NCBI RefSeq assembly: GCF_003010915.2
Contig: NZ_CP028426.1
Location: 372,001-436,000, forward strand
DNA from: Gulosibacter molinativorax
GTDB lineage: Bacteria; Actinomycetota; Actinomycetes; Actinomycetales; Microbacteriaceae
Length of the DNA stretch: 64,000 bases
Direction: 5' to 3'
A program made the translations under genes and the position numbers. Under the pieces are notes generated by a model. The model was given only the letters and a program-made list of their open reading frames with translations, did no database searches and had not been told where the DNA came from. This document shows positions 33,901-55,232 of the stretch, one piece after another (position 1 is the stretch's first letter; each line of letters starts with the position of its first letter).

Positions 33901-33908
33901 AGGTGCGC
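33901..33908 (-). repeat. Recurrent element motif GCGCACCT (copy 1)
   Basis: Minus-strand GCGCACCT, 51 bp upstream of the ssb start. It is followed (minus strand) by CTCCAATGAACGGCGACC, the same GGCGACC trailer as copies 2 and 3. Confidence 0.5.
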
Positions 33909-33932
33909 GGCACGTTCCCGCTCTTGACCTGG

Positions 33933-35708
33933 TTACGGGCGTTGACGCAAGGATTCTTCGACCACGGCCCGCTGTGCGCGGAGTTCGCCGCTGTCCCGCC
34001 TGCCCGTCCATGCGCGCAACTTCGCGACGATGGGTGGGGCTGCGCGAAGCAGGATGAGGCCGGTGCCGAATGGCAGGGTGCGAATCACGTCGGGCGGCAT
34101 GATCGCCACCCGCCGGATCGAGCGCTGCGCGGTACGGGAGCCGTGGTCGCCGATGGTCGTGGAGTCCGTGATCTCATCGCGTTCCCCGATCAACGTGGTG
34201 AGGTCTTGGAGGTCGCGACTATTGGATGCCCCACCGAGGATGATCTTCACGATCGAGGCGTCCCAGATCGCGCCGGCAGCGTTCTCCGACCACTTCTCCC
34301 GTGCTTGGGCGAGTGACTGCAGCACCGGCATTGTCGTGATCCCCGTACCCCCGCCTTCCGCCATCAGCGTCGGTAAGGACGGGAGTGGGGCGAGATTCCC
34401 GATCTCATCGAGGGCGAGGAGCAGGGGCGGGTCGAGGCGCGCGGATGGTGATCTTGCGGCGAGGCGTCGGGCAGCTTCGACGAGGTCTTCCACGAACGCC
34501 GACACCAACGCCGCACTGTTATTCGCCCCAGCCCCCGTCGCCAAGAGATACACAGTGCCGCGTTTGCGGAGGAACTCTTCCGGGTCGAACCGCTCGTCTG
34601 GGCCGGGGCTCACGGCGTCGAGGACGCGCGGGTCGGCGAGGGCTGCGAGTGAGAGGGAGACGCCTTGCCAGATTGAGTCACGGGTGCGGGGGTCGGAGTC
34701 GATCATTGCTTGCAACGAGTCCGCCCACCCTGTTGCAGCGTTCGGGTTGGCGGTGAGGATCGCGACGGCATCGGACGCTGCGGCGGGGTCGAGGGTCCAC
34801 CGGAACAACTCGGCTGGGGTGCGGTGGTCGAGGGCTGCTGCGTGGAGGAGGGCTTGGAGTGCGGTGCGGGTTTTCCCTTCCCAGAAGTCACCGCCCTCAA
34901 CACCACCCGCGGACAGGCCGGTGCCGGCTGCGAGGCCGGTGGCGCGGATCATCGCCGTCAACGGGTCCTCACATCCCCGAATCGGCGACCACCGGAGCCC
35001 CGCCGGAACACCTTCGGCGAGGTGTTGCGGGTCGAACACCGCCACCGGCCGCCCCTCAGCACTGCGGGCGGTGAGAGTGGCGGTCAGGTTATCCGGGCGG
35101 GTGGAGGTCGTGACGACCGCACCGGGTGCGTCGAGGATCGCATTGATCACGACGTGCAGGCCCTTGCCTGAGCGCGGTGGCCCGATCAGCAGGATCGAGT
35201 CCTCGACACTCGCCCACACGTTCACGCCCCGCGATGCCCCGAGCAGATAGCCCACGTCTTGCGCTTCGGGCTTTGGCAGTGAGGGGCGGAGTTGCCCGCC
35301 GCGGCGCAGCAGCGCCTTCTCCGACGCAGCGGTGGTGACATCGGTGCGGGTCGCGATCCCGACGATCCGATACGGGTCGATCTTCGTGCGCCGGGTGTGC
35401 TCCCGGAACGTGCGCCACACCCACCAGCCCGCGGCACCAACCGTGATGATCAGGAGCCCCGCGACGATCCAGTAGACGACGGCGTTGAGCCCATCGGCAC
35501 CAAGCGCGGTACCCGGGTCGGCGGGGTGCAAGAGTACGCCGAGACCGGATTCGATGCCACCGCTCGGCTGCGCGGCCCCTGTCGCCCACGCGGCGATCGT
35601 GCCGGTCATCCGGAGGATGACGGCAAGGGCCGCGGCCGCGATGAGGGCGATGATCCCGAGGTTCGCTAGCTCATCACCGAGCGCCCCGCCCTGCCTCGGG
35701 GTGCTCAT
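33933..35708 (-). CDS. VirD4/TraG-like type IV coupling ATPase
   Basis: A 591-residue protein with two N-terminal transmembrane segments, a Walker A motif in LLIGPPRSGKGLHVVI, Walker B LLLALDEIGNLAPLPSL and the conserved TMPVLQSLAQAREKW. Such ATPases bring DNA-protein substrates to the transfer channel. ATG 35708 overlaps the preceding gene by 4 nt (ATGA). It is the first strong indicator that this is a conjugative rather than merely mobilisable element. Confidence 0.92.
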   Translation of the reverse strand: MSTPRQGGALGDELANLGIIALIAAAALAVILRMTGTIAAWATGAAQPSGGIESGLGVLLHPADPGTALGADGLNAVVYWIVAGLLIITVGAAGWWVWRTFREHTRRTKIDPYRIVGIATRTDVTTAASEKALLRRGGQLRPSLPKPEAQDVGYLLGASRGVNVWASVEDSILLIGPPRSGKGLHVVINAILDAPGAVVTTSTRPDNLTATLTARSAEGRPVAVFDPQHLAEGVPAGLRWSPIRGCEDPLTAMIRATGLAAGTGLSAGGVEGGDFWEGKTRTALQALLHAAALDHRTPAELFRWTLDPAAASDAVAILTANPNAATGWADSLQAMIDSDPRTRDSIWQGVSLSLAALADPRVLDAVSPGPDERFDPEEFLRKRGTVYLLATGAGANNSAALVSAFVEDLVEAARRLAARSPSARLDPPLLLALDEIGNLAPLPSLPTLMAEGGGTGITTMPVLQSLAQAREKWSENAAGAIWDASIVKIILGGASNSRDLQDLTTLIGERDEITDSTTIGDHGSRTAQRSIRRVAIMPPDVIRTLPFGTGLILLRAAPPIVAKLRAWTGRRDSGELRAQRAVVEESLRQRP

Positions 35709-36283
35709 GCGAGCCTGCTGACGACGAGGGTGCCGGAGATACGGCCGAGGAGAATCACTTCACCCGTCACCGCGGCCGCTGCTTGTTCCGTGGTGAGAAG
35801 CGCGCGGGCGGTGCCGTCGGGACTGGCATCTGAGTGGGCGTGGATGACCGCGACCGCGACATCCTCACCCGGCACGAACCCAGAACCCGCGACCTGATGC
35901 AGCACCGGCGGCACCGCTGCCACCGGAGGCCTCACCACCTCCGGTGCCGGTGCCTCCCAAGGTCTCGCGGTGGGTCGTTCTCGTGGTGGGGTGATGATGT
36001 CGGTGAACGTAGACCCGTCCGCTTCCCGAACCTGCACCCGCAGCGGCGTCCGGTGCCGGGCTGCGAGGGTGTCGAGAATCGCGGGGAACGATTCGCGCCG
36101 CCACCCGGGTGCGAATGGCTGCGGCAGATACGGTGCTCCGTCGACGGTGACACTCATGACGCCGTCCACGCTGATGGTGAACTCCACCACCGGCACCACC
36201 ACCGGCCCACCACTCTTGGGTGCAGGTGCTGTCGGGGGCTGAGTGTCGGGGTTGGTGCGGCGGTAGCGGGGCTTCGGGGTCAC
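35705..36283 (-). CDS. Hypothetical element protein upstream of virD4
   Basis: A 192-residue protein with no recognised family. A basic Pro-rich N-terminus is followed by VVEFTISVDGVMSVTVDGAPY, probably beta-strand, and a Pro-rich linker around residue 130. GTG 36283 is chosen over an upstream in-frame ATG because GGAAGGA precedes it by 8 nt. The element motif lies 37 bp upstream, and an intrinsic terminator separates it from the surface-protein gene, so this gene probably has its own promoter. Confidence 0.75.
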   Translation of the reverse strand: MTPKPRYRRTNPDTQPPTAPAPKSGGPVVVPVVEFTISVDGVMSVTVDGAPYLPQPFAPGWRRESFPAILDTLAARHRTPLRVQVREADGSTFTDIITPPRERPTARPWEAPAPEVVRPPVAAVPPVLHQVAGSGFVPGEDVAVAVIHAHSDASPDGTARALLTTEQAAAAVTGEVILLGRISGTLVVSRLA

Positions 36284-36320
36284 AAGCGGGTCCTTCCAAG
36301 ACGAACAGCGGTCGCCATGC

Positions 36321-36328
36321 AGGTGCAC
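36321..36328 (-). repeat. Recurrent element motif GTGCACCT (copy 2)
   Basis: Minus-strand GTGCACCT, 37 bp upstream of the gene starting at 36283 and downstream of the surface-protein terminator. It is followed by GCATGGCGACC. Confidence 0.5.
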
Positions 36329-36347
36329 CCGCACCGCCTGAGCGCAG

Positions 36348-36392
36348 AAAAGGCGGGATGGCACGAACCTGGGGGTTGGTTCGTGCCCTCCC
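36348..36392 (-). terminator. Intrinsic terminator of the surface-protein gene
   Basis: On the minus strand GGCACGAACC and GGTTCGTGCC form a perfect 10-bp stem around an 8-nt loop, followed by ATCCCGCCTTTT. It lies 48 nt past the stop of the LAxTG protein gene. Confidence 0.8.
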
Positions 36393-36439
36393 GTGCTGAC
36401 CCACCATGTGGGGGGCGCCAGCGGATCAGCAGCCTGTGG

Positions 36440-39400
36440 TTAGTCCTCCTTTGCTCCCTCGAACTGGGCCTTGAACTCCTCGAACGCCTCGTCCTCCTCA
36501 CGGACGTACCCAGTGCGTTCGCGGGCGATCGCGAGGCGGCGACCGAACAGCAGCACCCCGCCGGTTACGGCGGCGATCAGGCCACCGGCGAGCCCGAGCG
36601 GCCACCAGTTGCCATCCGCGCCGGTCTGCGCCAACTCACCCGGCGTGCCGGGCTCCTCGGGCGTCTCCGGCACGGGGGTGACGATGGTGGTCTCATCCGG
36701 TGCGCCGCAGAGGCCACGGTGCAGGATCAGGCCGTCCTCGTCGATCACCGTCTCCACCCAGTAATAGGTGCCGACCTCATCGAAGATCACCTCATCCGAG
36801 GTGTAGTCGCCGGGACCGTCGAGGTCGATCGCGGCGGAGGTGAACACGAGCTCTTCCGCGGTGCACAGCGCCTCATCGGTGTGCTGCCGGTACGCCTCGA
36901 ACACGAGCCGTGCCCCCTCCGGCACGGTGCCGGTGACGGTTGCGACATCATGCGCCGCCTCACCCAACACGACGGTGGGCACCGCGTTCGTCTTCACCCG
37001 CAGTTCTTCCGGCTGCTCGGTGACGACGGTCGTCTCGCCCGGTGCTCCACACTTCCCTTCAGCGATCACATCGCCGTCGGTCGCATAGAGGGTTTCGACC
37101 CAGTACACGTTCCCAGGCTCCGCGGCGATGGTGGTGCCGGAGTGGTAGATGCCGGCCTGGGTGACGGGGATCTCGTCGCTGACGAAGAACGGCGACTCAC
37201 ACACCGCCCCGACCTCTGCCGGGTGCGGCCCGTAGGCGCGGAACACCAGGTACGCGCCGTCGGGAATCTTCGTGCCCTGCACCAGCGCGGTGTCCGAGAA
37301 CGGTTCCCCGACAGCTGCTTCCGGGGTTGCCTGCGTGATCACCGACACCGGCACCTCCGTGCCTGTCGGTGGGACGTAGAAGCGTTCCAGTACATCCGCC
37401 GGAGACGACTGATAGGGCTGCACCCGGTCGTCGCCCTCGAACGTCGTCACGAGCACATAGAACCCCGGCTCGGTCGGCACGATCTTGTCGTCATCCGTGT
37501 AGCCGAGCTTGTAGACCCCATTCCTCGCCGGCGTCGTGAGCTCCGCCAGTACCGGTGCCGTGGTCAGGTCGAGATCATCCGTGAGTTCGGTATCGGTGGC
37601 GAAGGGGCCGTAGACGGTGTGTCGGAGCACGTCGAGGTCGGGGCTCCAGTAGCCATCGCCGGTGAAGTCGCCGTGGTTTGCCGGGAACCCCGACACGGTG
37701 GCGACATCGAAGGCGCGGCCGTCGGGGTGCACGTTGTACTCGCGCATCAGCGAGGTCACCGTGATTGGCCATCGCACGGATGTCGTCTCGACGTTGATGC
37801 CGTAATCGTCGGCCCAGTCGTTTGCGAGGTAGTCGCGCACCCACTCCGGCTGCGAGGACTTCTTAACCTCCCACACCCAGGTCACGAACCCGCCCGACGG
37901 CGCCACCACCGACGGTGACGTGTAGACGCCAGGGCCATCCGCAGTGACCGTCACCGTGCCGAGAGGAACCGCGTTCGAGTCGATCGCCGTGTTCTGTGCC
38001 GGGGGCAGGGTTCCGGGGACTTGGTAGGCGGTGCCCTCGAACACCACCGGAATGTGTGCGCCGTCCTTCTTCAACCACACACCGTTGCTGCTCGATACGG
38101 TGATCGTGTCCCTCAGGGCATCACTAGGGACGGCGAGGCGCTGGTCGGCTTCGGAGACGGTGACGGGCTGGAACGGCACCACCGAGGTCTCAGCGACCTG
38201 CCCGAACCGGTCGGTGAACGAGTCGGTCAGGTACTTCGCGTTCTCGCCGTGCGCGGCCTTGTCGATCGACCACACCCACGTGTAGAACCCCGATTCCGGG
38301 GCGATGATCGTGCCAGGCGACGAATACGACCCCGCACCCGTCAACGTCACCGTCTCGGCGCCCGCGACAGGGGCGCCAGCTGGTGGGGTGTCCGATTCGG
38401 TGGGCTGCTCATCGAACGGCCCATACAAGGTGCCGGTCGCGGTCACCTCGACAGGGTTCCCGTCGAGGTGAATCCAGGTGCCCTTCGACACCGACACCGT
38501 CAGCCCGTCCACGAACGCATCACCTTCAGCGACGAAGCGGGACGCAACCTGGGTGCTGATCTCCGGCTGGAAATCAAGGTCGATCACCGGAGACTCCACC
38601 GACGCCGACAACCCCGTGGAAGAGCCCGCGACAGCGGCGACAAGGCGCTGCGCACCGGGCGTCGTGTAGAGATCGAGCGCGGCCCCATATCCGGCGGCGG
38701 CGATGTTCATCGACGCGCCGATCTTGTACGACGGAACTCCATCAGCGGGGGTGCCGGTGATCGGGTGCGCACCGACGGCGAGATTCCGAGTCGAGGCCCC
38801 GTCCGCGAACACCGCATTCGTTAGCGACGCACTCCCCGTGAGAGAGTCCGGATGCGCTGCAACGGTGAGGGTGCCGTTGTACTGATCCGTCATGTCCAGC
38901 GCTAGGGACAACGACGGGTCCGTGACCGCGTTCACTGCTGCCTGCTGCCGCATGGTCGAGAGGTTCGCGAGGATCGTGCCCCGCTCCGACGCCGGCGCGC
39001 GGCCGACGTAGTAGGTGTCACCGGACATGCCGTGGGAGTTGTAGGTGCCAGCGCTGGTGACCGACCACACATACAAGGCGACCGCGGAGGTCACATTCGC
39101 ATCGCCCGACTGCCCCCACCGGTCCAGGACATAGTTCAACTCCGCGAGTTGCTGCCTCGACAACGAATCCAGCGACGTGATCGTCTCCGGGCCGGAGGTT
39201 TGCGCGAACGGAGAATCAGCATCCAAGTCAGCGCAATACGCCTGCCGGCCATCGACATCGGTGTTGTAGGCGCCGAGGAACCCCATCCCGATGTCGTACC
39301 CGACGCCAAGACTGCCCGCATGAGCTGCCGGTGCATTCAGCGCGAGCGACCCGGCGAGAAGGAACAGGGCCAGCAGCACCGACAACCAGCGCCGCACCCC

Positions 39401-39535: not shown

Positions 39536-40549
39536 TCACAACCCCGGACCCTGCGGCCTCCGGCCGAGACCGGGCTTCTCCTGATCGAGCGGCTCGGCCT
39601 CGAGCCCTGCCCGCTCCCGCACCGCACGATGCGCACCGTCACGTACTCCGTGGAGGAGTTCGCGGATGTCGTCGTAGCCGGTGATGATCGACCCGAGCCG
39701 GTCACGCAACAGGCGGTGACACCCCGCAGACGCGGCACTCGTCAGCGGCCCAGGGACCGCACCGACCGGACGACCCAGTTCCATCGCACGGGCGGCGGTG
39801 TGGAGGGAGCCCGAGCGGTAGCCGGCCTCGGTGATGACGACGGTGCCGGAGAGCGCGGCGAGGAGCCTGCCGCGTTGCAGAAACCGCCACCTCGTCGGCG
39901 CAGCACTGGGCGGCAACTCACTCAACAACACGCCGTCGTTGGCGACCTGGCCCAGGAGTTCGGTGTGCCCTGCCGGGTAGGGGCGGTCCAGGCCTCCGGC
40001 GAGCACCGCGATCGTGGAACCATCAGAGGCGAGCGCGGCACGGTGTGCGGCGCCGTCGATCCCGTAGGCCCCACCGGAGAGCACCGTGCGGCCATCCGAG
40101 ACCGACGCCTGCACCAACTCCGTCGTGACGTGTTCCCCGTACCCGGTGGACGCCCGCGCCCCGGTGACGGCGAGGCGATCCCACACCGGCCCTACGAGCA
40201 GGCTGGTGTCGCCTTTCGCCCACAGGGCCACCGGGGCATGATCTCCGAGCGCGTTGGCCGATGCCGGCCAGTCCGGATCACCGGGGATCAGCACCCGCAG
40301 CCCGTGCCGCTCAGTCTCCGCAATCACCCGCCGCACCTGGGCCGCGTCGAGGCGCGGGGCCAGACGCCGCTGCCAGGTGTCACCATCCGGCCCGACCGGC
40401 ACCTCATCGGCGACGGCACGGGCCACAGTCTCGGATGCGCCGACGGTGCGGATCATCCGCCCCGTCACCGCATCACCGGGTTCAGAGACAGTCGCGAGGA
40501 TGATCCTCGCGGTGCGCTCGTCGGTGGCGAGCTCGTTGATCGTGTCCAT
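39536..40549 (-). CDS. dprA: DprA/Smf-family DNA-processing protein (element-borne)
   Basis: A 337-residue DprA-like protein with the Rossmann-fold signature: VTGARASTGYGEHVTTEL, GGAYGIDGAAHRAAL, AGGLDRPYPAGH and VVITEAGYRSGSLHTA. Chromosomal DprA loads RecA on incoming single-stranded DNA during transformation. Here the gene sits between virB4-like and surface-protein genes of the conjugative element and may protect or process transferred DNA. The start is ATG 40549; 159 bp without an obvious gene separate it from the ATPase gene. Confidence 0.9.
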   Translation of the reverse strand: MDTINELATDERTARIILATVSEPGDAVTGRMIRTVGASETVARAVADEVPVGPDGDTWQRRLAPRLDAAQVRRVIAETERHGLRVLIPGDPDWPASANALGDHAPVALWAKGDTSLLVGPVWDRLAVTGARASTGYGEHVTTELVQASVSDGRTVLSGGAYGIDGAAHRAALASDGSTIAVLAGGLDRPYPAGHTELLGQVANDGVLLSELPPSAAPTRWRFLQRGRLLAALSGTVVITEAGYRSGSLHTAARAMELGRPVGAVPGPLTSAASAGCHRLLRDRLGSIITGYDDIRELLHGVRDGAHRAVRERAGLEAEPLDQEKPGLGRRPQGPGL

Positions 40550-42996: not shown

Positions 42997-44460
42997 TCAG
43001 ACGGTGCGGCACAGCGGCAGGGCTGCGACGGTGAAGGCTTGGGCTTGCTGCCCGACAAGACGGCGGGTCTCACAAGACGCTTGGATCGCGGCCTGTTCGA
43101 TCGCCGCGACCGCGGTGTCGAGCTCTTCCGGCGTGGGCGCGCTGATCGAGATGAGGCCGGTGTAGCGGAGGACGCCGTGGCCGGCGGTGAGGTCTGCTTC
43201 TTGTTGGAGGACATCGCCGTATTCGGCGGTTTGGGAGGCGTCTTCGATCTGCCCCATCTTGGAGCGTTGCGCCGCATCCGAGATCAGCTCGGTCTTCTTC
43301 TTCCGAATATCCCTCGCCGCCTGATCCGAACGGATCGGCGTGCACACCAGCGAAAACGAGCGCTGAATCCCCGACGACAGCAACACCGGGGCGAGGAACC
43401 CCGGATACACCTGAGACCTCGGCCACTCGCTGATCCACAGCACCGCGTGGTGTGCGGAGTCCGACCGCAACCGATCCCACGACTCCGTCACCGCCACGGG
43501 TCCCGCAGTCGCAAGGCTCCGACCGATGTCGCCGTGACGTTCAAGAAGCGCAGCGGTGGCGGGGTCATACGCGGATCGGAGGATCACGGCGACCTCTGCT
43601 GGTGTGAGCCAAGCACCGACGGTGAGTTCCGCGGCGCGCAGCGCGGTCACGAGCGTCGTCATCTCCTGACGGAGCACTGCCGCAGCCCCCTTGATCCCGC
43701 CACCGTTGGTTCGCACCTGGCGTGCTGCGGCGCGGAGGTCGAGGGCGAGACTGATCGTCGTCGCGTGACGTTCCCCGGCGGGGCCTGCGCGGTCGATGAG
43801 TTCCCGGTAGACCGTCGAGGTCCACGAGCCGTCATCCGTGCCGTGACTGCGCCACCACTCAACGAGACCAGAGCCTCCGTCGGGGAGAGTGCGTTCGCAG
43901 ACCTGGAGACGCGCGATCCTGCCGGAGCGGCAGGTCGTGGCGAGCACGCGCCCCCAGGTGGCGACGCGGCGTTCTTGTTCGCTTGGGTCGAGGAGCACGA
44001 ACGCGGGATGCGACACCGCGATGATCGCCGTGAGCGTCTGATTGTGGGGGTCGTGGATCATCGCCGCCCACGTCTCGGGGTCTTCCCACTCGCGGAGCGC
44101 GGCGGCATCGCCCGGGAGTGCGAGGGTGCCTGCGGGGCGGGGTTTCACGATCCTGCGCCGGAACACGGTCTGCCGTGCCTGTGTGCGTGCGACCCACCGG
44201 AAGGTGACGGGCACCCACTCGATGAGCTTCCTGCCCCCGACCGGCGTCCACGCGAGGGCTGCGCTGAGGAGCCAGATGGGTGCGGTCCAGGTCAGGAGGA
44301 TGCCGCCGCCGGCGTAGAGGGCACCGACGATGGAGAGCACTCCGACGGCGAGGACGATGAGTTGTGGGAGGGAGAGGCCGAGGAGGATACCGCGGCGGGT
44401 GAGGCGGGAGAACTGCACCGCCCGCAACCCAAACTCCACCGTGCTCTGCTGGTTCGACAT
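42997..44460 (-). CDS. PrgI-like / SCO6880-family type IV secretion protein
   Basis: A 487-residue protein with two transmembrane segments near residues 25-75 (LSLPQLIVLAVGVLSIVGALY; LLTWTAPIWLLSAALAW), as in PrgI/VirB3-type proteins, and a long cytoplasmic domain resembling the VirB4 N-terminal region (HAVLWISEWPRSQVYPGFLAP). SCO6880-family proteins accompany such ATPases in Streptomyces and related elements. It lies 3 nt after the TrbL-like gene. Confidence 0.82.
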   Translation of the reverse strand: MSNQQSTVEFGLRAVQFSRLTRRGILLGLSLPQLIVLAVGVLSIVGALYAGGGILLTWTAPIWLLSAALAWTPVGGRKLIEWVPVTFRWVARTQARQTVFRRRIVKPRPAGTLALPGDAAALREWEDPETWAAMIHDPHNQTLTAIIAVSHPAFVLLDPSEQERRVATWGRVLATTCRSGRIARLQVCERTLPDGGSGLVEWWRSHGTDDGSWTSTVYRELIDRAGPAGERHATTISLALDLRAAARQVRTNGGGIKGAAAVLRQEMTTLVTALRAAELTVGAWLTPAEVAVILRSAYDPATAALLERHGDIGRSLATAGPVAVTESWDRLRSDSAHHAVLWISEWPRSQVYPGFLAPVLLSSGIQRSFSLVCTPIRSDQAARDIRKKKTELISDAAQRSKMGQIEDASQTAEYGDVLQQEADLTAGHGVLRYTGLISISAPTPEELDTAVAAIEQAAIQASCETRRLVGQQAQAFTVAALPLCRTV

Positions 44461-45898: not shown

Positions 45899-46168
45899 CT
45901 AGACGGCTTGGCCTACGCCCCAGAAGAAGTTGATGAGCGTCACCGATGCGCCGCAGATGATCGCCGCTCCACAGGACACGAGTACCCCGACCTTCCCGCG
46001 CGACGCGAGATGTGGGTTGCTGCTGTTCGCGCCGAATCCCCACACGATCGCGGAGACGATCAGGGCGAGGACGGAGAGGATCAGGCCGACGGTCATCACC
46101 GCGCCGACGATGATGCGCAACTGCTCGATACCCGGAAGCCCGGTACCGTTCGGATCAATATCAATCAC
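45899..46168 (-). CDS. Small pilin-like membrane protein (DUF6112 type), copy A
   Basis: An 89-residue protein with two hydrophobic segments (IVGAVMTVGLILSVLALIVS and VGVLVSCGAAIICGASVTLI) joined by a short charged loop, the size and plan of VirB2/TrbC-type pilins. It is clearly paralogous to the protein at 47.7 kb. GTG 46168 is chosen because AAGGAG lies 7 nt upstream; the open frame further upstream overlaps the divergent plus-strand gene. The element motif lies 50 bp upstream. Confidence 0.82.
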   Translation of the reverse strand: MIDIDPNGTGLPGIEQLRIIVGAVMTVGLILSVLALIVSAIVWGFGANSSNPHLASRGKVGVLVSCGAAIICGASVTLINFFWGVGQAV

Positions 46169-46218
46169 AGGGTGCTCCTTCAGCTCACACCGCCACCAAG
46201 GAGGCGGACTTGCCAGCC

Positions 46219-46226
46219 AGGTGCAC
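46219..46226 (-). repeat. Recurrent element motif GTGCACCT (copy 4)
   Basis: Minus-strand GTGCACCT, 50 bp upstream of pilin-like copy A and about 45 bp from the divergent plus-strand gene. Confidence 0.5.
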
Positions 46227-46270
46227 CCACTTGCCCACGGCGAATCTAGGAGCTCTCCTAAAATGAGGAG

Positions 46271-47626
46271 ATGACGGGAAATACCGAGACAACGAGGCCT
46301 CTGGTGATGTACGTCGTGCACGCGAAGGGCGCGAACCGAATCAGTTACCTGAGCGTTGAGAAGATCAGCGAAGCCTTCGATAAGGAATCCACTCCGACCG
46401 TCGGCTCCCTCTGCGCTATCGTCCGCGAAGGAGATGAAGAACTCGGCACCGGGGACTACCTGATCGGGTTAGCCGTCACGCGCGGTGTCGCAGGCATTGC
46501 GAGTGGCACGCTGCGTGCGACCTTGTCACCAATCCTCCGACTGCTCGCACCACTCGAACTTGAGCAGTTGCGAGAACAAGCAGTTTCAATGCCAGCAATG
46601 CCGCAACACTTCTATTCGCGCCGACTCGACGGCCCTACAGCGACGGCCTTGTTGAACCATCTCCGACAAGTCGACCCGACAGTCGGCCCCTGGCTGGACT
46701 CCGTGTTCAGAGAACCGCGCACGTTCGACGATGAAGTACAACAGTCGAGAGTCGAAGCGCGAGATGCGGTCCTGCTCGCATCACAGATTGCGGAGGTTCC
46801 GTTGCCCGCAGATGCCTTTGGCGAGCCGCCCAGCGTCGAGGAGAAAGAGACGCTTCTCGACACGGTACTGAACGCCGGCTACGAGCGAGACATGGAAGAG
46901 GAACTACTGCCACTCGATCTTCAACGTTTTGACGGCAAACTCATCGCCGACCAGCGAGCGGCAAGCCTCGCCGTTTTCGAGGATCGAAACGGCCAACGGA
47001 AGCTCCTGGTCATGTCAGTGAACAAGAAGCCCATCGAAGAAGAACTTGGCGTCGACCTCCTCTACTGGGACCAGGTTCACGATGCCTTCACCTTCGTCCA
47101 GTACAAGCGACTCGAACGAGCTGACAGCGGCGACGGACACGGCACCTACGAGTGGGTCTATCGGCGCAGGAAAGAGATAGAGAAGCAGCTCGACCTCATG
47201 CCGAAAGGTCGCGAACTGCCGAAGATGGCTGCGGACTGGCGAGCTTTCGATACCCGTTCTGGTTCAAGTTCGTGCGCGGAGACGCTGGACGAAAACTCGA
47301 CGGACAGACACTCAAAGGCATGTATGTCTCGGCTGACTGGCTGCGGCTCGCCATGACTGATTCGACATTCAAAGTCGGGCCGCGAGGCGGTTTCCGAGTC
47401 ACTTACAAGAACGCGAAGTATCTGGGCGGAGAGTCTTTACGCAACTCGTCTCGCGCGGATTCACTGGAACTGCAAGCACGCGTTCCAAGGCGTTCAAGAA
47501 AGCGATGGAAGAGCTGGCTCTGACCGAGAACTCATCATCGCGATCAAGGCCGAGTGGCAAGAAGACGCTGAACCCGAGCCATCAACTGCATCTTCCGACA
47601 TACCCTCAGCGGCGCTGCCGTTCTAG
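46271..47626 (+). pseudogene. Putative PD-(D/E)XK-type nuclease gene, three frameshifts
   Basis: This is the only substantial plus-strand gene in the conjugation region. The first frame (to 47356) encodes LVMYVVHAKGANRISYL through a central block ending GVDLLYWDQ and FTFVQYKRLE. The spaced Asp and Q-x-K resemble a PD-(D/E)XK nuclease core, though the family was not recognised. Near 47245, 47436 and 47530 single added bases (two in TTT runs) restore a continuous protein: RYPFWFKFVRGD, then FTQLVSRGFTG, then LIIAIKAEWQED to TAG 47624, about 450 residues. ATG 46271 directly abuts GAGGAG, so ATG 46307 is an alternative. Cargo or defence function is inferred from orientation and position. Confidence 0.6.
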
Positions 47627-47663
47627 GAATACTGCGACCTCAGTACTTCCCGCGGTTCCGCGT

Positions 47664-47927
47664 CTACAGGTTCTCGCCGACGCCGAGGAGGAAGTTCACC
47701 CACGCGACTCCGGCACCAGCGAGAGCTGCCGCGCCGAGTGCGACCCACGCTCCGATTCTGGCTTTAGTGGCGGTGTGGGCGTTGCCGGTAGAGGAGGCGA
47801 TGGCCCAGATGATCGCGGAGACGACCAGCATGAGTACGGCGATTATGAGCACGAACATCAGCAGCGCACCGATCACCGCACGAAGTTCGCTGTCGGCGCC
47901 GACACCGCCGAAGTCGGGGAACACCAT
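47664..47927 (-). CDS. Small pilin-like membrane protein (DUF6112 type), copy B
   Basis: An 87-residue protein with two transmembrane segments (ALLMFVLIIAVLMLVVSAIIW and AWVALGAAALAGAGVAWVNF). It aligns along its whole length with copy A: LRxxIGA, VSAIxW, GAAxxxGAxV and NFxxGVG are shared. It probably forms pilus or channel subunits. ATG 47927 overlaps the end of the wall-hydrolase gene by one base, so it belongs to that transcription unit. Confidence 0.82.
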   Translation of the reverse strand: MVFPDFGGVGADSELRAVIGALLMFVLIIAVLMLVVSAIIWAIASSTGNAHTATKARIGAWVALGAAALAGAGVAWVNFLLGVGENL

Positions 47928-49111
47928 CAGCGCCCACCCCCGCCCAGCGTGCACGACGCGCGAGAGGTGGTGCCGCCGGTGATGCCTTCCGCGCCCTGAT
48001 CAGTGAGCCACTGGTCGGCGTCGATCGCGGGCTGCCCGGTGCCGCCGGGGCGGATTTCAAGGTGGAGGTGGGGCCCGGTGGATTTCCCGGAGGAGCCGAC
48101 ATCGCCGATGTGTTGCCCGGCGGTGACGGTCATGTCTTCGGTGACGTGGATGCCGTACTCCCACATATGTGCGTAGTACGACGCGATGCGTTCCCCGCCG
48201 ACGGTGTGCTCGACGATGATGAGCCCGCCCCAGTTGCCGGTGTATCCGGCGTGGGTGACGATCCCGTCTGCGACGGCGTAGATCGGGGTGCCGTCTGCGG
48301 CGGCGAAGTCGCTGCCGGAGTGGAATGCCTGCTCGAAGGTGATCGGGTCGGTGCGCCAGCCGAACGGACTCGTCCGCACCCACATACCCTCCGGCAACGG
48401 GAACACCACCCGGGTCGTCTCCGGCACCACAACCTCACCACCGTTGCCACTGCCGCCGTTTGATGCTGCGGGCTTGGTGAGGGCGGCCAGTATTGCTTCG
48501 GCGACGGGCTGATAGTTCTGATACCTGTCCGGGTACGCCGACACCTCGACGGCCTGCGCTGCTTCGCCGGGGTCGAGCTGCTGCCAGCCCGGAATGTCCA
48601 ACAAGCCGCGCGGTGAAGGGTAGTTGGGGCCGGTGGGTCCGCCGTAGAACGCACGGGCTTGATAGTTCGGGTCCATGAGCTCAGCGACGGTGCCCCATCC
48701 GGCTTGTGGGCGCATCTGGAACAGGCCGAGTGAGTCGTGGTCGGAGGCGTCGCCGTCGTTGGGGTAGTTCGCTGATTCGGGGTAGGTGCCGGTGTTGGCG
48801 AGCATCCGTAGATGCGACTCCGTGAGCGCCGCCATCAACGCAATCACCACACCCGGACGCCCCACCCCATCGGTTTGACTACCGACAGTGATGATCGTCG
48901 CGGCGTGGGTGAGCTGCTGACGATTCAGCGTCACCGTCTCACTGTTCTTCGCCGTTGCGGTGAGCGAGTCCGGGATCGGCCCCACGATCAACGACCCCGG
49001 CGCGCACGCGGCGACCGCAGGATTCGCTAGAACAGCAACGGACAGGAGTGCGGTCGCGGGGCCGAAGCAGACCGCGGCGATGGCGAGGGTGGCGAGGAGT
49101 TTCTTGAGCAT
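47927..49111 (-). CDS. Bifunctional lysozyme-like / M23 peptidase (VirB1-like wall hydrolase)
   Basis: A 394-residue secreted protein. After a signal peptide (residues ~1-34, LATLAIAAVCFGPATALL) comes a lysozyme-like domain with a catalytic-type Glu in ALTESHLRML and SLGLFQMRPQAGWG, then an M23 endopeptidase with HxxxD in HSGSDFAAADG and HxH in GPHLHLEIRPGG. Such enzymes open peptidoglycan for the conjugation channel. ATG 49111 is chosen; upstream in-frame translation overlaps the next gene and is low complexity. Confidence 0.92.
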   Translation of the reverse strand: MLKKLLATLAIAAVCFGPATALLSVAVLANPAVAACAPGSLIVGPIPDSLTATAKNSETVTLNRQQLTHAATIITVGSQTDGVGRPGVVIALMAALTESHLRMLANTGTYPESANYPNDGDASDHDSLGLFQMRPQAGWGTVAELMDPNYQARAFYGGPTGPNYPSPRGLLDIPGWQQLDPGEAAQAVEVSAYPDRYQNYQPVAEAILAALTKPAASNGGSGNGGEVVVPETTRVVFPLPEGMWVRTSPFGWRTDPITFEQAFHSGSDFAAADGTPIYAVADGIVTHAGYTGNWGGLIIVEHTVGGERIASYYAHMWEYGIHVTEDMTVTAGQHIGDVGSSGKSTGPHLHLEIRPGGTGQPAIDADQWLTDQGAEGITGGTTSRASCTLGGGGR

Positions 49112-49118
49112 GACCGGG

Positions 49119-49851: not shown

Positions 49852-49859
49852 GGTGCGCT
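49852..49859 (-). repeat. Recurrent element motif GCGCACCT (copy 5)
   Basis: Minus-strand GCGCACCT, 37 bp upstream of the VirB8-like gene start. Confidence 0.5.
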
Positions 49860-49892
49860 CAGGCGTTCAGGCGACGGAACCGACTCGGCGAG

Positions 49893-50960
49893 TCAGGCGG
49901 TGTGCCGGTGTGCGTCCCGTGCGGCGCGGGCGAGATCCAGGAACGCGACTGTCGCGGCGACGGCCTGCTCGAACATGACCCACTGCTCCTTCGAGAGGGC
50001 GAGGCCGATAGCTTCGGGGTCGTAGCGTTCCGTCCAGGTGGAGAGCTCGTCCCAGAGATAGACGAACGACCGCACCGGCAGGAACTCCCGTCCTGGTTCT
50101 TCGACGGCGTGGAGGCGTGCGGACGCGAGCTGGTTGGGGCGCTTTTTCGTCGCGGTCTTCGCCCGCTCGACCGCAATCTCAGCCAGTCGTTGCAAGTCCG
50201 CGGGCCTGGCGGTGTGTTCGAGTTCCCGCAGGCGTGCTGCGCCGGACGCGGCAGTATCGCGGATGCCTGCCGGCTGTGCGGGATCGGCGGCGAGGGTGTC
50301 GAGCTCGGCCAGGCATTGTGCTGCCCGGATACGCTGTTGTGCCCCGGTGATCGACCCGCCTGCGTCGATCCGGTCAAGCTCGTGGGACGCCCGTTCCCGG
50401 ACATCGTCAGGCTGGGAGAGATCGGCGGCGATCTGCTGCAACTCGTTGATGCGTTCCAGCGAGGTGTAGGCGTTGCGTCCGGTCACCATGAGTGCGGCTT
50501 GCTGGCGGGTTTCGCCTTTCTGCGGTGCCGCCACGGTGGCGGCACCGTTTGACCTGGAGTTTTCTTGTTTCGAGGTGAACCGTGACGCTTCCTGTCGGCC
50601 TGCCGCGTCCTCGGCCATGAGGGCTTTCAGCTCGGCGTAGAGCGTGGCTTCTTCCGTGCGGGTGAGGGGCTTGTGGAGCAGGTTGTCGTCCTGTTCGGCG
50701 AGGAGCTGCCCGAGGGTGGTAGAGATGCCGGAGCGCACCCACACATTCACGGTCTTCCACCCGAGTTTGCGGATGGCGGCAAGGCGGCGGGCGCCGCAGA
50801 TCAGCATCCCGTCCGGGGTGATCGTGATCGGCTGCAAGAGTCCCTCGCGCGCGATCGACTCCACCAGCGGGTAGAGGTCGCCAAAGTCTTCCCGGTGGCG
50901 GCGTCCGGACCAGATCGAATGGACGGCCCGCTCCAGCTCGATATGCCCCGGCTCGCTCAT
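49893..50960 (-). CDS. ParB/Spo0J-type nuclease-domain protein
   Basis: A 355-residue protein whose N-terminal ParB domain includes HREDFGDLYPLVESIAREGLLQPITI and LICGARRLAAIRKLGWKTV (the GxRR motif), followed by helix-turn-helix-like and helical regions. No parA lies beside it. It may stabilise or regulate the element. The start overlaps the preceding gene by 4 nt. Confidence 0.88.
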   Translation of the reverse strand: MSEPGHIELERAVHSIWSGRRHREDFGDLYPLVESIAREGLLQPITITPDGMLICGARRLAAIRKLGWKTVNVWVRSGISTTLGQLLAEQDDNLLHKPLTRTEEATLYAELKALMAEDAAGRQEASRFTSKQENSRSNGAATVAAPQKGETRQQAALMVTGRNAYTSLERINELQQIAADLSQPDDVRERASHELDRIDAGGSITGAQQRIRAAQCLAELDTLAADPAQPAGIRDTAASGAARLRELEHTARPADLQRLAEIAVERAKTATKKRPNQLASARLHAVEEPGREFLPVRSFVYLWDELSTWTERYDPEAIGLALSKEQWVMFEQAVAATVAFLDLARAARDAHRHTA

Positions 50961-51823
50961 GGCCGGCCCCGCATGATGCCAGGGGCGGCGACCTTGATCG
51001 CGGCCCCCAGTTCGGTGTCATCCATGAGATGCCAGAGGGGTTCACCGATCAGGAGCCGCAACAGCAACCCGCGGCCCGCATTCGTTCCGGCCAGGTGCGT
51101 GTCGGGAGAACCGAGGATGATCCGCAGCAGCCGATACCAAGACGGGGCAGGGATGTCCAGGAGCGCGCGGGCGTGACGATCCCGCCGCAGCGACTCATAT
51201 GCCCCGGCGCGGGAGACGGATTCCGCCAGGCGGGCGCAGATGCACTCCACCGCAGCCCGCGCCACTTCTGGCTCCCACCCATGCCAGCACAACAGTGCGA
51301 TGGTGTCCTCCACCGCGGACTCCACACCCGTCGACCCAGTGTTTTCGGTCGTGTGGTCAACGTCGTCCTCTTCGTCAGTGAAGGGGTCGGCGCGGAATGC
51401 GGGGTGGTAGTCGGTGAGAGGGTTTTCGCGGTCGGAGAAGCGTTCGGCGTCATGGAAACTCGAGTACCGAGGCCGGCGTGCCTGATGCACCGAACAGAGC
51501 AGCCCGTTAGCGCGGTTCTCTGCGATGCAGGTGATCTGCACGGCGCGGGTGATGGCTGCCCACGGGTCATCGGCTCGGCGGACGGCGGCGGTGCGCATCG
51601 CCTCGAACGCCGCCGTCGCCGCCTCCCACGGATCAAGCCCATGCTTGCGCGCGAGAGCCGCGTACTTCTGGGCGGCGTGCCGCATGAGCGCTGCCGCTTC
51701 CGCGTCTGTTCGCCAGGCGTCTGGTCCATCGTCGTTCAGGCGGGTGAGGAGTTCGCGGAGTCGTTCTGAGTTCTCGAAACCCTGCCCGCGGCGGTTGGGG
51801 CCTGTGTTGTGATGTTGTGGCAT
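50957..51823 (-). CDS. Hypothetical element protein preceding parB
   Basis: A 288-residue, mostly helical, acidic protein I do not recognise. It contains RHAAQKYAALARKHGLDPWEAATAAFEAM, whose pattern hints at a sigma-factor or helix-turn-helix-like region, but the evidence is weak. ATG 51823 follows AGGAGG by 8 nt. The element motif is 20 bp upstream. It overlaps the ParB-like gene by 4 nt, suggesting shared function. Confidence 0.75.
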   Translation of the reverse strand: MPQHHNTGPNRRGQGFENSERLRELLTRLNDDGPDAWRTDAEAAALMRHAAQKYAALARKHGLDPWEAATAAFEAMRTAAVRRADDPWAAITRAVQITCIAENRANGLLCSVHQARRPRYSSFHDAERFSDRENPLTDYHPAFRADPFTDEEDDVDHTTENTGSTGVESAVEDTIALLCWHGWEPEVARAAVECICARLAESVSRAGAYESLRRDRHARALLDIPAPSWYRLLRIILGSPDTHLAGTNAGRGLLLRLLIGEPLWHLMDDTELGAAIKVAAPGIMRGRP

Positions 51824-51843
51824 GGTGGCACCTCCTGACAGGC

Positions 51844-51851
51844 AGGTGCGC
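51844..51851 (-). repeat. Recurrent element motif GCGCACCT (copy 6)
   Basis: Minus-strand GCGCACCT, only 20 bp upstream of the gene starting at 51823 and close to its Shine-Dalgarno; the nearest copy to a start codon. Confidence 0.5.
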
Positions 51852-51901
51852 GCCGGCTCCCCACCGACCCTGTCGCGCCATCGTCTTCTGCGCATGGCGG
51901 T

Positions 51902-52333
51902 TCACCCCAGCCCGATCCCGGCCGGCCGCACCCACGACGACGAGCGCGGCCGATCCTGCGGCTCGAACACATCGAACGACTCGAACACCGACGCCTCATC
52001 GGTAACCGTTCGTTCAGCGCGGCGATCCCGGATGCTGCGAACACCGTTACGAGTTGCTCGGTAGGCGTGGCCTGGTGCACGGCGGGCACGGTGTGCGAGT
52101 TCGGTCTGGAAGTTGATGCCGCGGCCAGCGATCCGGGCGGTGCTCGACGCGATCAGATCGGTGGGGCGTACCCACGCAATCCCACGCCCCACCCGCGAAC
52201 CAGGACCAGTGCTGGTGGTGAGCGAGGGGTCGCGGTGCACAGCGAACGCCGAACGCTCCGCCTCTGACCCCTCCACCGACTCCAGCCGAACATCCAGTGG
52301 CTCAGTCCGGTTCGTCTCTGCAACGTCGTTCAC
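51902..52333 (-). CDS. Hypothetical basic element protein
   Basis: A 143-residue protein, Arg-rich in its central and C-terminal parts (RARRAPGHAYRATRNGVRSIRDRR), with no recognised family. It overlaps the upstream DUF2637-like gene by 4 nt, so it is likely translated, possibly as a DNA-associated protein. Confidence 0.65.
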   Translation of the reverse strand: MNDVAETNRTEPLDVRLESVEGSEAERSAFAVHRDPSLTTSTGPGSRVGRGIAWVRPTDLIASSTARIAGRGINFQTELAHRARRAPGHAYRATRNGVRSIRDRRAERTVTDEASVFESFDVFEPQDRPRSSSWVRPAGIGLG

Positions 52334-53022
52334 GATGTCTCCTCCTTCACTTCAGCGCCGAACCAGCGGCCCACAGTCGACGGGTGCACGCCCAGGTGCC
52401 GGGCGATCTGCTTGTTCGACCACCCCTCCACCTCCCGCAGTTGCGCCGCCTCCTCCCGCCGCTCGCTTACCGGCACCACCGGGACCGGCGGCTTGGACGT
52501 CGGTGCGTCTTCCAGCCCCGGCACGGCATCACCTGTTGTCGCCACAGCGCGCACGACCGGCGCCAGGTCCGGCACGGTCTCGTTTGCTTTCGTGATCGGC
52601 GCGACGGGGCGGGTGAGCATGACGGTCAAATGAGTGATTGCGAGCAGCACGAGCGGTGGGATCGCGGCGACCGATGCGGCAAGGACGCTGGGAACGTCGG
52701 TGTCGGCGGCGATGATCGCGTGGATCGCATTCGCAGTCACCGACACCACAGCCCCCGCAGCAAGCAACGTCCAGGGATACCAAGTAGGTCGGTGCTGGCT
52801 GGCGAGAGCGACGACGGCGACGGTCGCGACGACGATGATGCCGTCCACGATCAACGGCCACGCCCACGCCTGCCGCGCATCAATCCCAGACCGCCGAGCC
52901 AGATCAGCAAGCGCCGTGAACGACAACCAGAACGCCCCCGCTGCGATGAACACCGTGCCCGTGATCGCCGTGACCACTGCCAACTGGCGGCCCCGCGGCA
53001 TCACCGTCTCCGCAGTGTTCAT
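52330..53022 (-). CDS. DUF2637 membrane protein with C-terminal helix-turn-helix
   Basis: A 230-residue protein with four transmembrane segments in residues ~12-140 (AITGTVFIAAGAFWLSF; PLIVDGIIVVATVAVVAL), matching the DUF2637 family found beside actinobacterial plasmid replication and transfer genes. The end carries a DNA-binding motif, EVEGWSNKQIARHLGVHPSTVGRW, so it couples a membrane part to DNA binding. The gene overlaps both neighbours by 4 nt. Confidence 0.85.
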   Translation of the reverse strand: MNTAETVMPRGRQLAVVTAITGTVFIAAGAFWLSFTALADLARRSGIDARQAWAWPLIVDGIIVVATVAVVALASQHRPTWYPWTLLAAGAVVSVTANAIHAIIAADTDVPSVLAASVAAIPPLVLLAITHLTVMLTRPVAPITKANETVPDLAPVVRAVATTGDAVPGLEDAPTSKPPVPVVPVSERREEAAQLREVEGWSNKQIARHLGVHPSTVGRWFGAEVKEETS

Positions 53023-53924
53023 GAGAGCACCCGCCCCGGTGATTCGCGCACGAGATGCCGCCGATCCGCCACGGGCTCTGCGTCAGCACGGTGCATGGGG
53101 TAGGTGGTGCGGTAGGCGGAACGGATCGTCGCCATGATCTCCCGTGACCTCAGCCCCGCGTGTTCGGCCGCAGGCCCGAGGGCTTCGAGAGTCGCATCGG
53201 GAGGGGTGCCGGCTTCGGCGAGACGACACGCAGCCCAGAACAGGCCCCGGTTCCGCTCACCCTCGCCACGCCCAGCCACCCAACCGGCAAGCACCTTCGC
53301 ATCCGAACCCCGCGGCTCGAACCGTGACGCACGGGCACGGTCGAACGGCACCGGGGTGCGGGTGTCGAGGAAGTCGCGCAGCCGCGCTGCATCCACCGGT
53401 GCCGGGGTGTTGCCTGCGACGATCAGCCGGTACGGGGTCCGTACCCCGCCGGGGCGGAGCACGCGGGAGGGCGGGGCGATGATGTATCCGCCGTCACCCC
53501 GAAAATCGACGTGCGCCCGTGCCGCTTGCCACGACGACTGCGACCGATCTGGGTCTGCCGGATAGTACGCGTGCAGCCCGCCGGAAGGCGTGCGCACCAG
53601 CGACGCCCACCCCGCAGCGAGGCCTTCACGATGTGCGGTGCGGAAAGCGGGGAATCCGGTGCCGGTGGAGTGGACGTCGACATCGACGACCTCCACTCCA
53701 GACGGGGTGCCGGTGGGGACCCCGATGTTCGCCGCCGGCCACCTCGACCACCAGTCCGCAACCTGGGCTGGATCGCTGGTGGCGTCGTGGAACCCGCGAC
53801 GCACCAGCGGCCGCTTCTCACCCGGCACACACGGGAACACCGGAACCCCCGCCGCCGCGAACCGCGCCGCAGCTTCGGGGAGCGGCATCCGGCTGACTTC
53901 GGAAAACAGATCAAAGGCACCCAT
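53019..53924 (-). CDS. Bifunctional DNA primase/polymerase (PrimPol-type)
   Basis: A 301-residue protein with an N-terminal Prim-Pol domain: AARFAAAGVPVFPCVPGEKRP, WPAANIGVPTG, the metal-binding VEVVDVDVHSTG (D-x-D) and GGLHAYYPA. The C-terminal ~100 residues resemble the primase accessory region but no helicase domain follows. Similar proteins start replication on actinobacterial integrative elements. It overlaps the ArdC-like gene by one base. Confidence 0.9.
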   Translation of the reverse strand: MGAFDLFSEVSRMPLPEAAARFAAAGVPVFPCVPGEKRPLVRRGFHDATSDPAQVADWWSRWPAANIGVPTGTPSGVEVVDVDVHSTGTGFPAFRTAHREGLAAGWASLVRTPSGGLHAYYPADPDRSQSSWQAARAHVDFRGDGGYIIAPPSRVLRPGGVRTPYRLIVAGNTPAPVDAARLRDFLDTRTPVPFDRARASRFEPRGSDAKVLAGWVAGRGEGERNRGLFWAACRLAEAGTPPDATLEALGPAAEHAGLRSREIMATIRSAYRTTYPMHRADAEPVADRRHLVRESPGRVLS

Positions 53925-54922
53925 CAGAGGCTCCTCGCTGAGGATGCGACCGGGCGGCGCGGCTCCTCGCTCAACGGATCAGCCGCCGTCTCGACCGCCG
54001 TCTCGGGTGGCTTCTTCGCTGCGGTGTCGCGACTGAGGCCGGGAGGGTCACCGTTGCCGATCTGCGCAGTGGGGAGCTGATCGAGAATCGCAGCGGCACT
54101 CTTTCGGACTCGTTCGCCGGTGGCTTGGACGACTTCAACCGGGGACTTCTCCGGCACCGTCGCTGCCCACCACGACACATACGGCACCGTGTAGTCACTC
54201 GTGTCCATGCCGTGAGCTGCGGCGACCATCAACGCGACCGAGTCCGCCTCCACTTCACCAATCCCGCGATGCCCGGTCGCATCGGCGTTGTCTGGTCCGT
54301 GGAGGAGCACGTGGGCGAGCTCGTGCACGAGAGTCTTCACCTGTGCCGCCTCGGGCATGTTCTCCCGCACCGCCACCGTCCGCGCACCGAAATCGGTGAG
54401 GCCGTTCGCGCCACGGATCATGCCCTCGTGCGACACCCGCAACACCGTGAACCCCTGCGCCTCGACTTGCGCGGCGATGCCCTTCCAGAGCCCATCGGGT
54501 GCTTCGCCTTCGAGCAACCGGGGTGACGGCGGGACAGGTATCGGATCACCCGCGGTCTGCGAAACATCCCACACATAGGCGGGGCGAACACCGACCATGC
54601 GGGACCGCACCGCCTCACCCGGCTTCGGCTTCTCGAACCGGCCAAGCCTTCGCCACGACTCCGCCACCTTCGGCGTGAACGACGCGAAACGGCCCGTGAC
54701 GGGCGCGAGGATCATGTACCCCGACTGGCCCTTCTCCACTTGCCGGCCGAGCGCCTGCCACTGCTTGAACCCCGCCACATACGACGGCACTGGCTCCGGC
54801 ACTCGGCCTGCCTCGAACGCTGCCTGATGCTGCACGAAGATCAGCAGCGTGTTATTGAACGAACGGGCACGGAACCGGGCCGCGAACTCTAACGCCTGCT
54901 TCCAGTCCTCACCCGACACCAA
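53924..54922 (-). CDS. ArdC-like anti-restriction protein with zinc metallopeptidase motif, 5' end frameshifted
   Basis: The open frame encodes 332 residues with an ArdC-like N-terminal ssDNA-binding domain (ARFRARSFNNTLLIFVQ; GRQVEKGQSGYMILAPV) and a metallopeptidase motif HELAHVLLHG with downstream Glu in GEVEADSVAL. ArdC proteins protect incoming DNA in the recipient. The true start is probably ATG 55005 with AAGGAG upstream; adding one base near 54973 restores MATSEEARVRED followed by AKLDALHEQLTGAVESLVSGEDW. As written only the first ~28 residues are out of frame. It would be the first gene of the conjugation transcription unit. Confidence 0.88.
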   Translation of the reverse strand: MVSGEDWKQALEFAARFRARSFNNTLLIFVQHQAAFEAGRVPEPVPSYVAGFKQWQALGRQVEKGQSGYMILAPVTGRFASFTPKVAESWRRLGRFEKPKPGEAVRSRMVGVRPAYVWDVSQTAGDPIPVPPSPRLLEGEAPDGLWKGIAAQVEAQGFTVLRVSHEGMIRGANGLTDFGARTVAVRENMPEAAQVKTLVHELAHVLLHGPDNADATGHRGIGEVEADSVALMVAAAHGMDTSDYTVPYVSWWAATVPEKSPVEVVQATGERVRKSAAAILDQLPTAQIGNGDPPGLSRDTAAKKPPETAVETAADPLSEEPRRPVASSARSL

Positions 54923-55060
54923 CGACTCGACCGCGCCGGTGAGCTGTTCATGGAGGGCATCGAGCTTCGCATCTCGCGCACCCGCGCCTCTTCGCTGGTC
55001 GCCATCGTCGTGCTCCTTCCGCAGGTACCCGCAACACGGCGGGTGACCTCTGCGACCAGA

Positions 55061-55068
55061 AGGTGCGC
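55061..55068 (-). repeat. Recurrent element motif GCGCACCT (copy 7)
   Basis: Minus-strand GCGCACCT, 55 bp upstream of the restored ArdC start at 55005. A related site, ATGCACCT, lies at 55126-55133, also upstream, followed by GGCGGTCGC. Confidence 0.5.
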
Positions 55069-55232
55069 GAAGGGACTCAGGAAACGCAATCGAGACGGAC
55101 GACGGACAGAAAGTGAGCGACCGCCAGGTGCATCACTGAACCCGACGTGGTCAAACTCGGTCTAGCTCATTCGGGAGAGTCCTGGTGATCCGTGCGCAAA
55201 AAGATGAGCGTTTCACCCGGCAAGACGCGCGT

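Follow-up and report, generated by a model that had tools for sequence, protein, structure and literature searches.

We analysed a 64,000-nucleotide stretch of the Gulosibacter molinativorax genome (contig NZ_CP028426.1, positions 372,001 to 436,000; hereafter the window), which carries an actinobacterial integrative conjugative element adjoining a tRNA-Pro gene, and found that a 26-bp motif stands before many genes of this element. We propose, with a probability of about 0.6, that these integrative conjugative and mobilizable elements have a private transcription system whose promoter is this motif, most likely read by a sigma-like protein, P0001, that the element itself encodes. The element also encodes integrase, single-strand-binding (SSB)-like, VirD4-like, VirB4-like, SCO6880/SCO6881 and M23-type peptidoglycan hydrolase proteins, as well as ParB-like, primase-polymerase, DUF2637 and ArdC-like proteins. 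Its motif-bearing genes lie on the minus strand, and the core of the motif in the sense orientation is G(C/T)GCACCT, written GYGCACCT below.

An earlier note on this DNA had listed seven exact copies of the core and one variant. Six of the exact copies were found where that note had placed them (33901, 36321, 39511, 46219, 51844 and 55061), the seventh had to be moved from 49852 to 49851, and the variant at 55126 was present with one mismatch. The distance of 20-56 nucleotides from motif to start codon held for the seven exact sites and failed for 55126, which lies about 120 nucleotides from its start codon, behind the site at 55061. With the first G of GYGCACCT numbered 0, the full 26-bp sites, scored in bits with the matrix from diverged relatives described below, are:

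55118..55143, minus strand: more distant copy of the promoter-like motif upstream of the ArdC-like operon; variant ATGCACCT with GGG at -10 to -8; predicted start 55118; 12.5 bits
55053..55078, minus strand: promoter-like motif before the ArdC-like gene (ATG 55005); predicted start 55053; 18.2 bits
51836..51861, minus strand: promoter-like motif before the sigma-like gene (ATG 51823); predicted start 51836, with a leader starting AGGAGG; 28.2 bits
49843..49868, minus strand: promoter-like motif before the gene for a 231-amino-acid membrane protein (ATG 49814); predicted start 49843; 15.2 bits
46211..46236, minus strand: promoter-like motif before the gene for a small membrane protein (GTG 46168); predicted start 46211; 23.5 bits
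39503..39528, minus strand: promoter-like motif before the gene for a 1004-amino-acid surface protein (GTG 39454); predicted start 39503; A in place of a pyrimidine at position 14; 14.1 bits
36313..36338, minus strand: promoter-like motif before a gene starting at GTG 36283; predicted start 36313; 18.6 bits
33893..33918, minus strand: promoter-like motif before the gene for the single-strand-binding protein (ATG 33850); predicted start 33893; 15.5 bits

On both strands of the window there were 15 exact matches to the core against 6.1 ± 2.4 expected, a number that none of 100 shuffles reached; across 26 kb of the element, seven matches were sense and one antisense. The window was also scanned with a matrix built from diverged relatives alone, namely 180 sites of loci L074-L129, in which the anchor protein described below is at most 81% identical. 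Above 10 bits this matrix gave eight hits over the two strands together, which were the eight reported sites and nothing else, whereas a first-order Markov null gave a mean of 2.2 such hits and a maximum of 6 in 30 runs; above 14 bits there were seven sites against 0.27 in the null. The GGCGACC trailer described in the earlier note was found 12, 16 and 19 bases from the motif's first base at 36321, 39511 and 33901, respectively, and because its offset varies it cannot be a fixed part of the motif. Conserved at fixed spacing instead were GG ten bases upstream and GKYR at positions 12-15.

Related elements were collected with the following protein as anchor:

42997..44460, minus strand: SCO6880-family conjugation protein (NF042935, 461 bits)

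This yielded 10 further element stretches from the host's own and related genomes, and 80 loci from named genomes, which ranked highest among the 494 anchor-gene relatives of one genome scan. Together with the window's own, there were 91 loci (1.79 Mb), among which a few represent the same element twice (G004_a/L058 and G077/L098). Genes were called with a simple codon-usage finder, so that calls are approximate and some starts are wrong. Sense GYGCACCT occurred 304 times between genes (1.95 per kb) but only 95 times inside genes of the same strand (0.066 per kb), so that the equal coding and intergenic density by which the earlier note would have judged the motif spurious was not seen. Between genes the antisense core was found 25 times (0.16 per kb), a 12-fold strand bias, and matrix hits above 12 bits numbered 430 sense against 12 antisense. 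Plain k-mer counts over whole loci were swamped by conserved coding sequence; the commonest intergenic 8-mers, apart from runs of N, were GCGCACCT (164) and then GTGCACCT (140). When 8-mers seen at least 30 times were ranked by intergenic over genic enrichment, GTGCACCT came first and GCGCACCT fourth, behind runs of N and a Shine-Dalgarno word. Because the loci are related, these counts are not independent; once near-copies were removed, the 301 exact sites fell to 177 and the 430 matrix sites to 246. Chance or base composition as the source of the motif was ruled out by the shuffles, the intergenic enrichment, the strand bias and the independent matrix.

The expected conservation in related elements was thus borne out, and the motif is common to elements from several actinobacterial families. 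Genes that overlap or closely follow their upstream neighbour had been said to lack it, and indeed it preceded only 17 of 676 genes that overlap or have a gap below 10 nucleotides. Its frequency was 3/212 at gaps of 10-39 nucleotides, 199/290 at 40-99, 50/154 at 100-400 and 7/34 above. Across the whole genome of the host, a loose pattern of the 26-mer matched 48 times and its reversed form 11 times; identified element stretches contain 15 of the 48, and the matches elsewhere in the chromosome are left unexplained.

The full motif, derived from a matrix seeded with exact core sites, can be written GG-N8-GYGCACCTGnYnGKY-R. Upstream of the core (positions 0-7) the conserved columns are G-10 (0.90), G-9 (0.67) and G-8 (0.58), and downstream of it G8 (0.70), Y10 (0.93), G12 (0.76), K13 (0.75), Y14 (0.95) and R15 (0.99), with conservation fading beyond position 18. 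Columns -50 to -11 each held at most 0.12 bit, with no conserved -10 or -35 element at a fixed upstream distance.

The placement of start codons relative to these columns was uneven. Of 246 distinct sites, 27 have a start codon exactly at offset 15 (24 ATG, 3 GTG), whereas ATG counts at offsets 12, 14, 16, 17 and 18 were 0, 0, 1, 0 and 1. Nine of these 27 are called gene starts; two others, in L090 and L099, sit in SSB leaders and are not starts, and the remainder include genes that were missed or called later. Such triplets at other offsets were 12 ATG at offset 9 and 23-24 GTG at 13 and 20, the latter because the motif and the Shine-Dalgarno sequence themselves supply GTG. The offset-15 class is drawn from several gene families, including the 231-amino-acid membrane protein. 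In L084, L122 and L124, a conserved short peptide with the N-terminal sequence MDFE(R/H)FEYL begins exactly at offset 15, upstream of the next gene, and would be a leaderless upstream frame. No called gene start lay at offsets 16-26; the remaining starts lie at 27 or more, the next class being 27-31. In a held-out test on 17 protein-centred loci not used before (three near-copies having been dropped), with the matrix cut at position 11, 9 of 66 sites had ATG at 15 and no site had it at 16-18; a pyrimidine-purine step stood at 14/15 in 42 of 50 intergenic sites. These observations suggest a promoter with transcription probably starting on R15, and genes that would be leaderless where ATG falls on R15; such a promoter accounts for both classes of start codon and for the empty range of 16-26. 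The sequence of the sigma-like gene from R15 is AGGAGGTGCC-ACC-ATG, with the Shine-Dalgarno sequence starting on R15, and its leader would therefore open with the Shine-Dalgarno sequence.

The most likely reader of the motif is P0001, which is encoded beside one rival candidate reader's gene and in the same element as another:

50957..51823, minus strand: sigma-like protein P0001, 288 amino acids (structure model)
49893..50960, minus strand: ParB-like gene, overlapping the sigma-like gene in the same operon (TIGR00180 1e-8, under its cut-off)
55233..56264, minus strand: AraC-family regulator upstream of the ArdC-like gene, a rival candidate reader of the motif (PF12833 4e-19)

In the structure model of P0001, residues ~11-110 appear to resemble sigma region 2, residues 113-163 are mostly of low confidence, and residues 167-280 form a helical domain without a known match, for which a fold search gave no sigma factor among its matches. 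The first three hits of a Foldseek search with the model were sigma factors, and all 50 entries of the VIA-align list were sigma factors or RNA polymerase holoenzyme (chain identity taken from title and chain letter), including AlgU at 2.7 Å over 84 residues. By tblastn, P0001 was found in 70 of the 91 loci. Among the 21 without it, 15 do not reach the full stretch length; of the six that do, two have it just outside. The motif preceded the P0001 gene in 52 of 69 loci. ParB and the membrane protein are nearly always its neighbours. P0001 is carried by 47 of 398 genomes of the host's family, a relative was present in one record of a plasmid collection, and none was found in a phage collection. 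In the host genome the sigma-like gene is present five times. A DUF2637 membrane protein encoded two genes upstream of it (52330-53022) has a C-terminal helix-turn-helix resembling sigma region 4 (PF08281 1.9e-6) and could be a membrane-held partner lending P0001 the region 4 that it seems to lack, although none of the three mobilizable elements described next was found to encode it.

The linkage of motif and P0001 extends to three integrated mobilizable elements, el5 (in the host's own genome, L180), G042 (L172) and G592 (L230), which are 74-83% identical to one another where alignable. They carry a relaxase and a large serine recombinase (identified by Pfam TrwC and Resolvase/Recombinase in el5, and by similar sequence in the others). 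Among 17 window proteins tested, only P0001 was found in all three, with AraC in addition in G042; neither the conjugation genes among these 17 nor ParB were found in any of them. All three have the motif before the P0001 gene, at offset 28, and a further copy on the opposite strand precedes the relaxase gene (offset 40 in el5 and 46 in G042); in G592 the start of the relaxase gene was missed by the gene finder, and an ATG is visible. Further matrix hits in el5 were an intergenic one of 21.2 bits with no called gene behind it and two within the relaxase gene, and those in the G042 and G592 stretches were weaker. In one diverged branch of P0001 (~30% identical; L105, L115, L123, L125 and L075), the core of the motif is shifted as well: of the 9 distinct sites of this branch, 3 have G at position 0 and 5 have T at position 3, versus 115 and 12, respectively, of 125 elsewhere (L098 was left out of the branch count). 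Separately, G000_el3 (L032, L033) and G004_c (L040, L041) have a diverged P0001, the variant GGGCACCT and a start codon one base closer, which is why the strict pattern misses them; as these are two near-identical elements, this variant is a lead only.

Several results weigh against P0001 as a sigma factor reading this motif. The putative sigma identity of P0001 comes from the fold of the model, and sequence profiles do not support it: P0001 had no match to a sigma profile in Pfam at E 5, in a further search at E 10, in NCBIfam or among PDB sequences, and hhalign of P0001 against a sigma alignment gave 0.1%. In a class-wide sample, with the strict pattern, the motif stood before the P0001 gene in only 6 of 19 loci. 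Finally, L098, G077 and G238, which are on the same arm of the tree as the diverged branch, mostly keep GCGCACCT, so that the core shift marks one branch.

If transcription starts on R15, then GG would lie at -25/-24, GYGCACCTG at -15 to -7 and a pyrimidine at -1. P0001 may lend RNA polymerase a sigma-2-like domain for the core, as the melting region, and its novel C-terminal domain may replace sigma-4, perhaps reading the GG at -25/-24. Because the P0001 gene itself carries the motif, a slight rise in P0001 would be expected to activate its own gene and, after it, the joint set of ArdC, SSB, membrane-protein and surface-protein operons, so that the element could switch on its transfer machinery as one unit. 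Where the start codon falls on R15 the mRNA would be leaderless, and elsewhere it would have a leader of 12-60 nucleotides with a Shine-Dalgarno sequence. A second lock is conceivable in read-through RNA, in which the bases before R15 may pair with the Shine-Dalgarno sequence and make translation poor. At 165 sites, the mean unpaired probability of the Shine-Dalgarno sequence was 0.29 in read-through RNA, 0.49 in RNA from R15 and 0.41 with shuffled upstream bases. It was 0.34 both when the core was kept and the rest shuffled (p 2e-6) and when another site's real upstream bases were used (p 1e-4; p 0.01 for d of at least 36), from which it follows that CACCT itself gives most of the effect and site-specific pairing a smaller part. 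The leader at 33901 folded better than shuffles (z -2.73), with a hairpin CTCTC...GAGAGGAG that covers the Shine-Dalgarno sequence in read-through RNA.

The earlier note had considered an element-wide operator, a promoter part or a transcript-processing site, and the promoter is the best backed of the three because start codons fall on the R15 purine or at 27 or more. An operator seems unlikely to us. In that case a DNA-binding repressor or activator of the element (P0001 itself or its AraC-family or ParB-like protein) would bind the motif and turn ordinary host promoters off or on, in the manner of mycobacteriophage stoperators. The site is asymmetric and stands in one direction before many genes of one element, as would suit an operator, and AraC sites are asymmetric two-box sites. 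However, no host-type promoter is conserved at a fixed distance from the motif, and the offset-15 start codons and the empty range of 16-26 have no reason under an operator. As for the candidate proteins, ParB was found in 104 of 107 loci but in none of the three mobilizable elements; AraC was found in 37 of the 107, with many of the other 70 too short to reach it.

It is improbable, although compatible with a promoter, that the motif acts in mRNA, as the 5' arm of a hairpin hiding the Shine-Dalgarno sequence or as a processing site. The reduced access to the Shine-Dalgarno sequence with real upstream bases, relative to shuffled, core-kept or swapped ones, is consistent with such a role, as are the long hairpins possible over the Shine-Dalgarno sequence, with differing stems, in the relaxase leaders of el5 and G042 (z -1.61 for the G042 fold). 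RNA cleavage just 5' of R15 would moreover mimic a transcription start and fit both start classes and the empty range. Against this, no part in pairing is apparent for the GG at -10/-9 or for the YR step, the leader at 51844 folded no better than shuffles (z -0.42), and in an Rfam scan of positions 31000-57000 only tRNA-Pro reached the gathering score, with no family for the motif. Sites starting at 15 have no Shine-Dalgarno sequence to hide, and a purely Shine-Dalgarno-sequestering RNA was demoted for this reason. The least probable of these alternatives is a promoter read by a host sigma factor, of the extracytoplasmic function (ECF) type or other, with a different task for P0001. The pyrimidine-purine start and the fixed spacing argue for a promoter only, whichever factor reads it, and the host genome has three loci with sigma region 2 besides the main one; yet elements from several actinobacterial families retain the motif, which in one branch shifts with the element's own protein.

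In a literature search of titles and abstract openings, no description of the motif or the protein was found. The nearest precedent for P0001 as proposed here is SigN (ZpdN) of the Bacillus subtilis plasmid pBS32, which is described in the passages covered of its report (PMC6751061) as a weakly ECF-like mobile-element sigma factor that drives itself and a plasmid regulon. According to the same passages, its sigma activity was shown in vitro and its promoters have -35 and -10 elements; P0001, known from sequence and a model, differs in having no detectable sigma sequence similarity and a C-terminal domain without a known fold, and its predicted promoter has GG at -25 and no -35, in a conjugative element of an actinobacterium. 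The start-associated sequences of cluster K mycobacteriophages, as given in the part of their report covered (PMC3203893), resemble the present motif in being asymmetric (13 bp), mostly one-way and placed before many genes of one element, in 11-19 copies, with no exact copy in M. tuberculosis H37Rv. They typically lie 3-7 bp before start codons and have AGGAG in their consensus, unlike the present motif, whose first base is 15 or at least 27 before called starts and which has no AGGAG box. Leaderless genes in which the start codon is the transcription start, as proposed here for the offset-15 class, are described from mycobacteria, where ATG or GTG at the RNA 5' end suffices for translation; their promoters have an ordinary -10 box, again in the passages covered (PMC4633059), and the present core is GYGCACCTG. 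The passages covered of a report on the host of locus L062 (PMC6868719) mention VirB4, VirD4 and relaxase hits and contain no such promoter.

The predicted promoter is also unlike sigma-70 and ECF promoters, having no -35 at ~17 bp from a -10 but an upstream element at -25/-24 if transcription starts on R15. Sigma-54 promoters have GG at -25/-24 and, ten bases further on, GC at -13/-12, with transcription starting about 12 nucleotides beyond. With R15 as the start, this GG-N10-GC spacing is matched (G-25 0.90, G-24 0.67, G-13 0.97, C-12 0.92), although P0001 has no RpoN domain in a Pfam scan at E 5 and sigma-54 is not known in actinobacteria. A mobile-element sigma factor with its own promoters is a known kind of system, and there is a real chance that the factor class is new here. 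We suggest more tentatively, at somewhat less than even odds, a new class of initiation factor in which a sigma-2-like domain is joined to a new C-terminal domain without sigma-4, with sigma-54-like -25/-13 spacing and with leaderless as well as leadered genes, and which conjugative and mobilizable elements would have in common, so that a conjugative element may activate a mobilizable one or be activated at the same time as it.

The surroundings of the motif sites in the window showed further features of the element. Its integrase gene lies beside the tRNA gene:

31383..32675, minus strand: tyrosine integrase adjoining tRNA-Pro (31112-31186) (PF00589 3e-25)

At 31022-31186, less than 100 bases from the tRNA gene, there is a degenerate repeat of the 3' part of tRNA-Pro, perhaps an attachment site remnant of stacked insertions. 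A second copy of the element lies ~47 kb further on the same contig (C1:450000-476500; L030, L031), with an SCO6880 protein that is 98% identical. At 54922-55005 on the minus strand, the ArdC-like gene looks frameshifted because its start ATG 55005 is out of frame with the main frame beginning at TTG 54922. Between membrane-protein genes and adjoining the motif at 46219, there is a foreign-looking insert (46271-47640; G+C fraction 0.60 in 46001-48000 versus 0.67 around it) with a plus-strand gene for a 361-amino-acid protein of no known family. The conjugation gene cluster also contains a gene for a DprA-like protein (39536-40549; TIGR00732, 201 bits, above the cut-off).

If the proposed system is real, many actinobacterial conjugative elements would be run by one transcription factor through one readable promoter code, and their transfer regulons could be read from genomes. 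It would also provide a clear case of leaderless genes built round a dedicated promoter, may add a possible sigma factor without region 4, and would give actinobacteria a compact switch for expression. It would further make the regulation of transfer by these elements directly testable, through one gene and one promoter.

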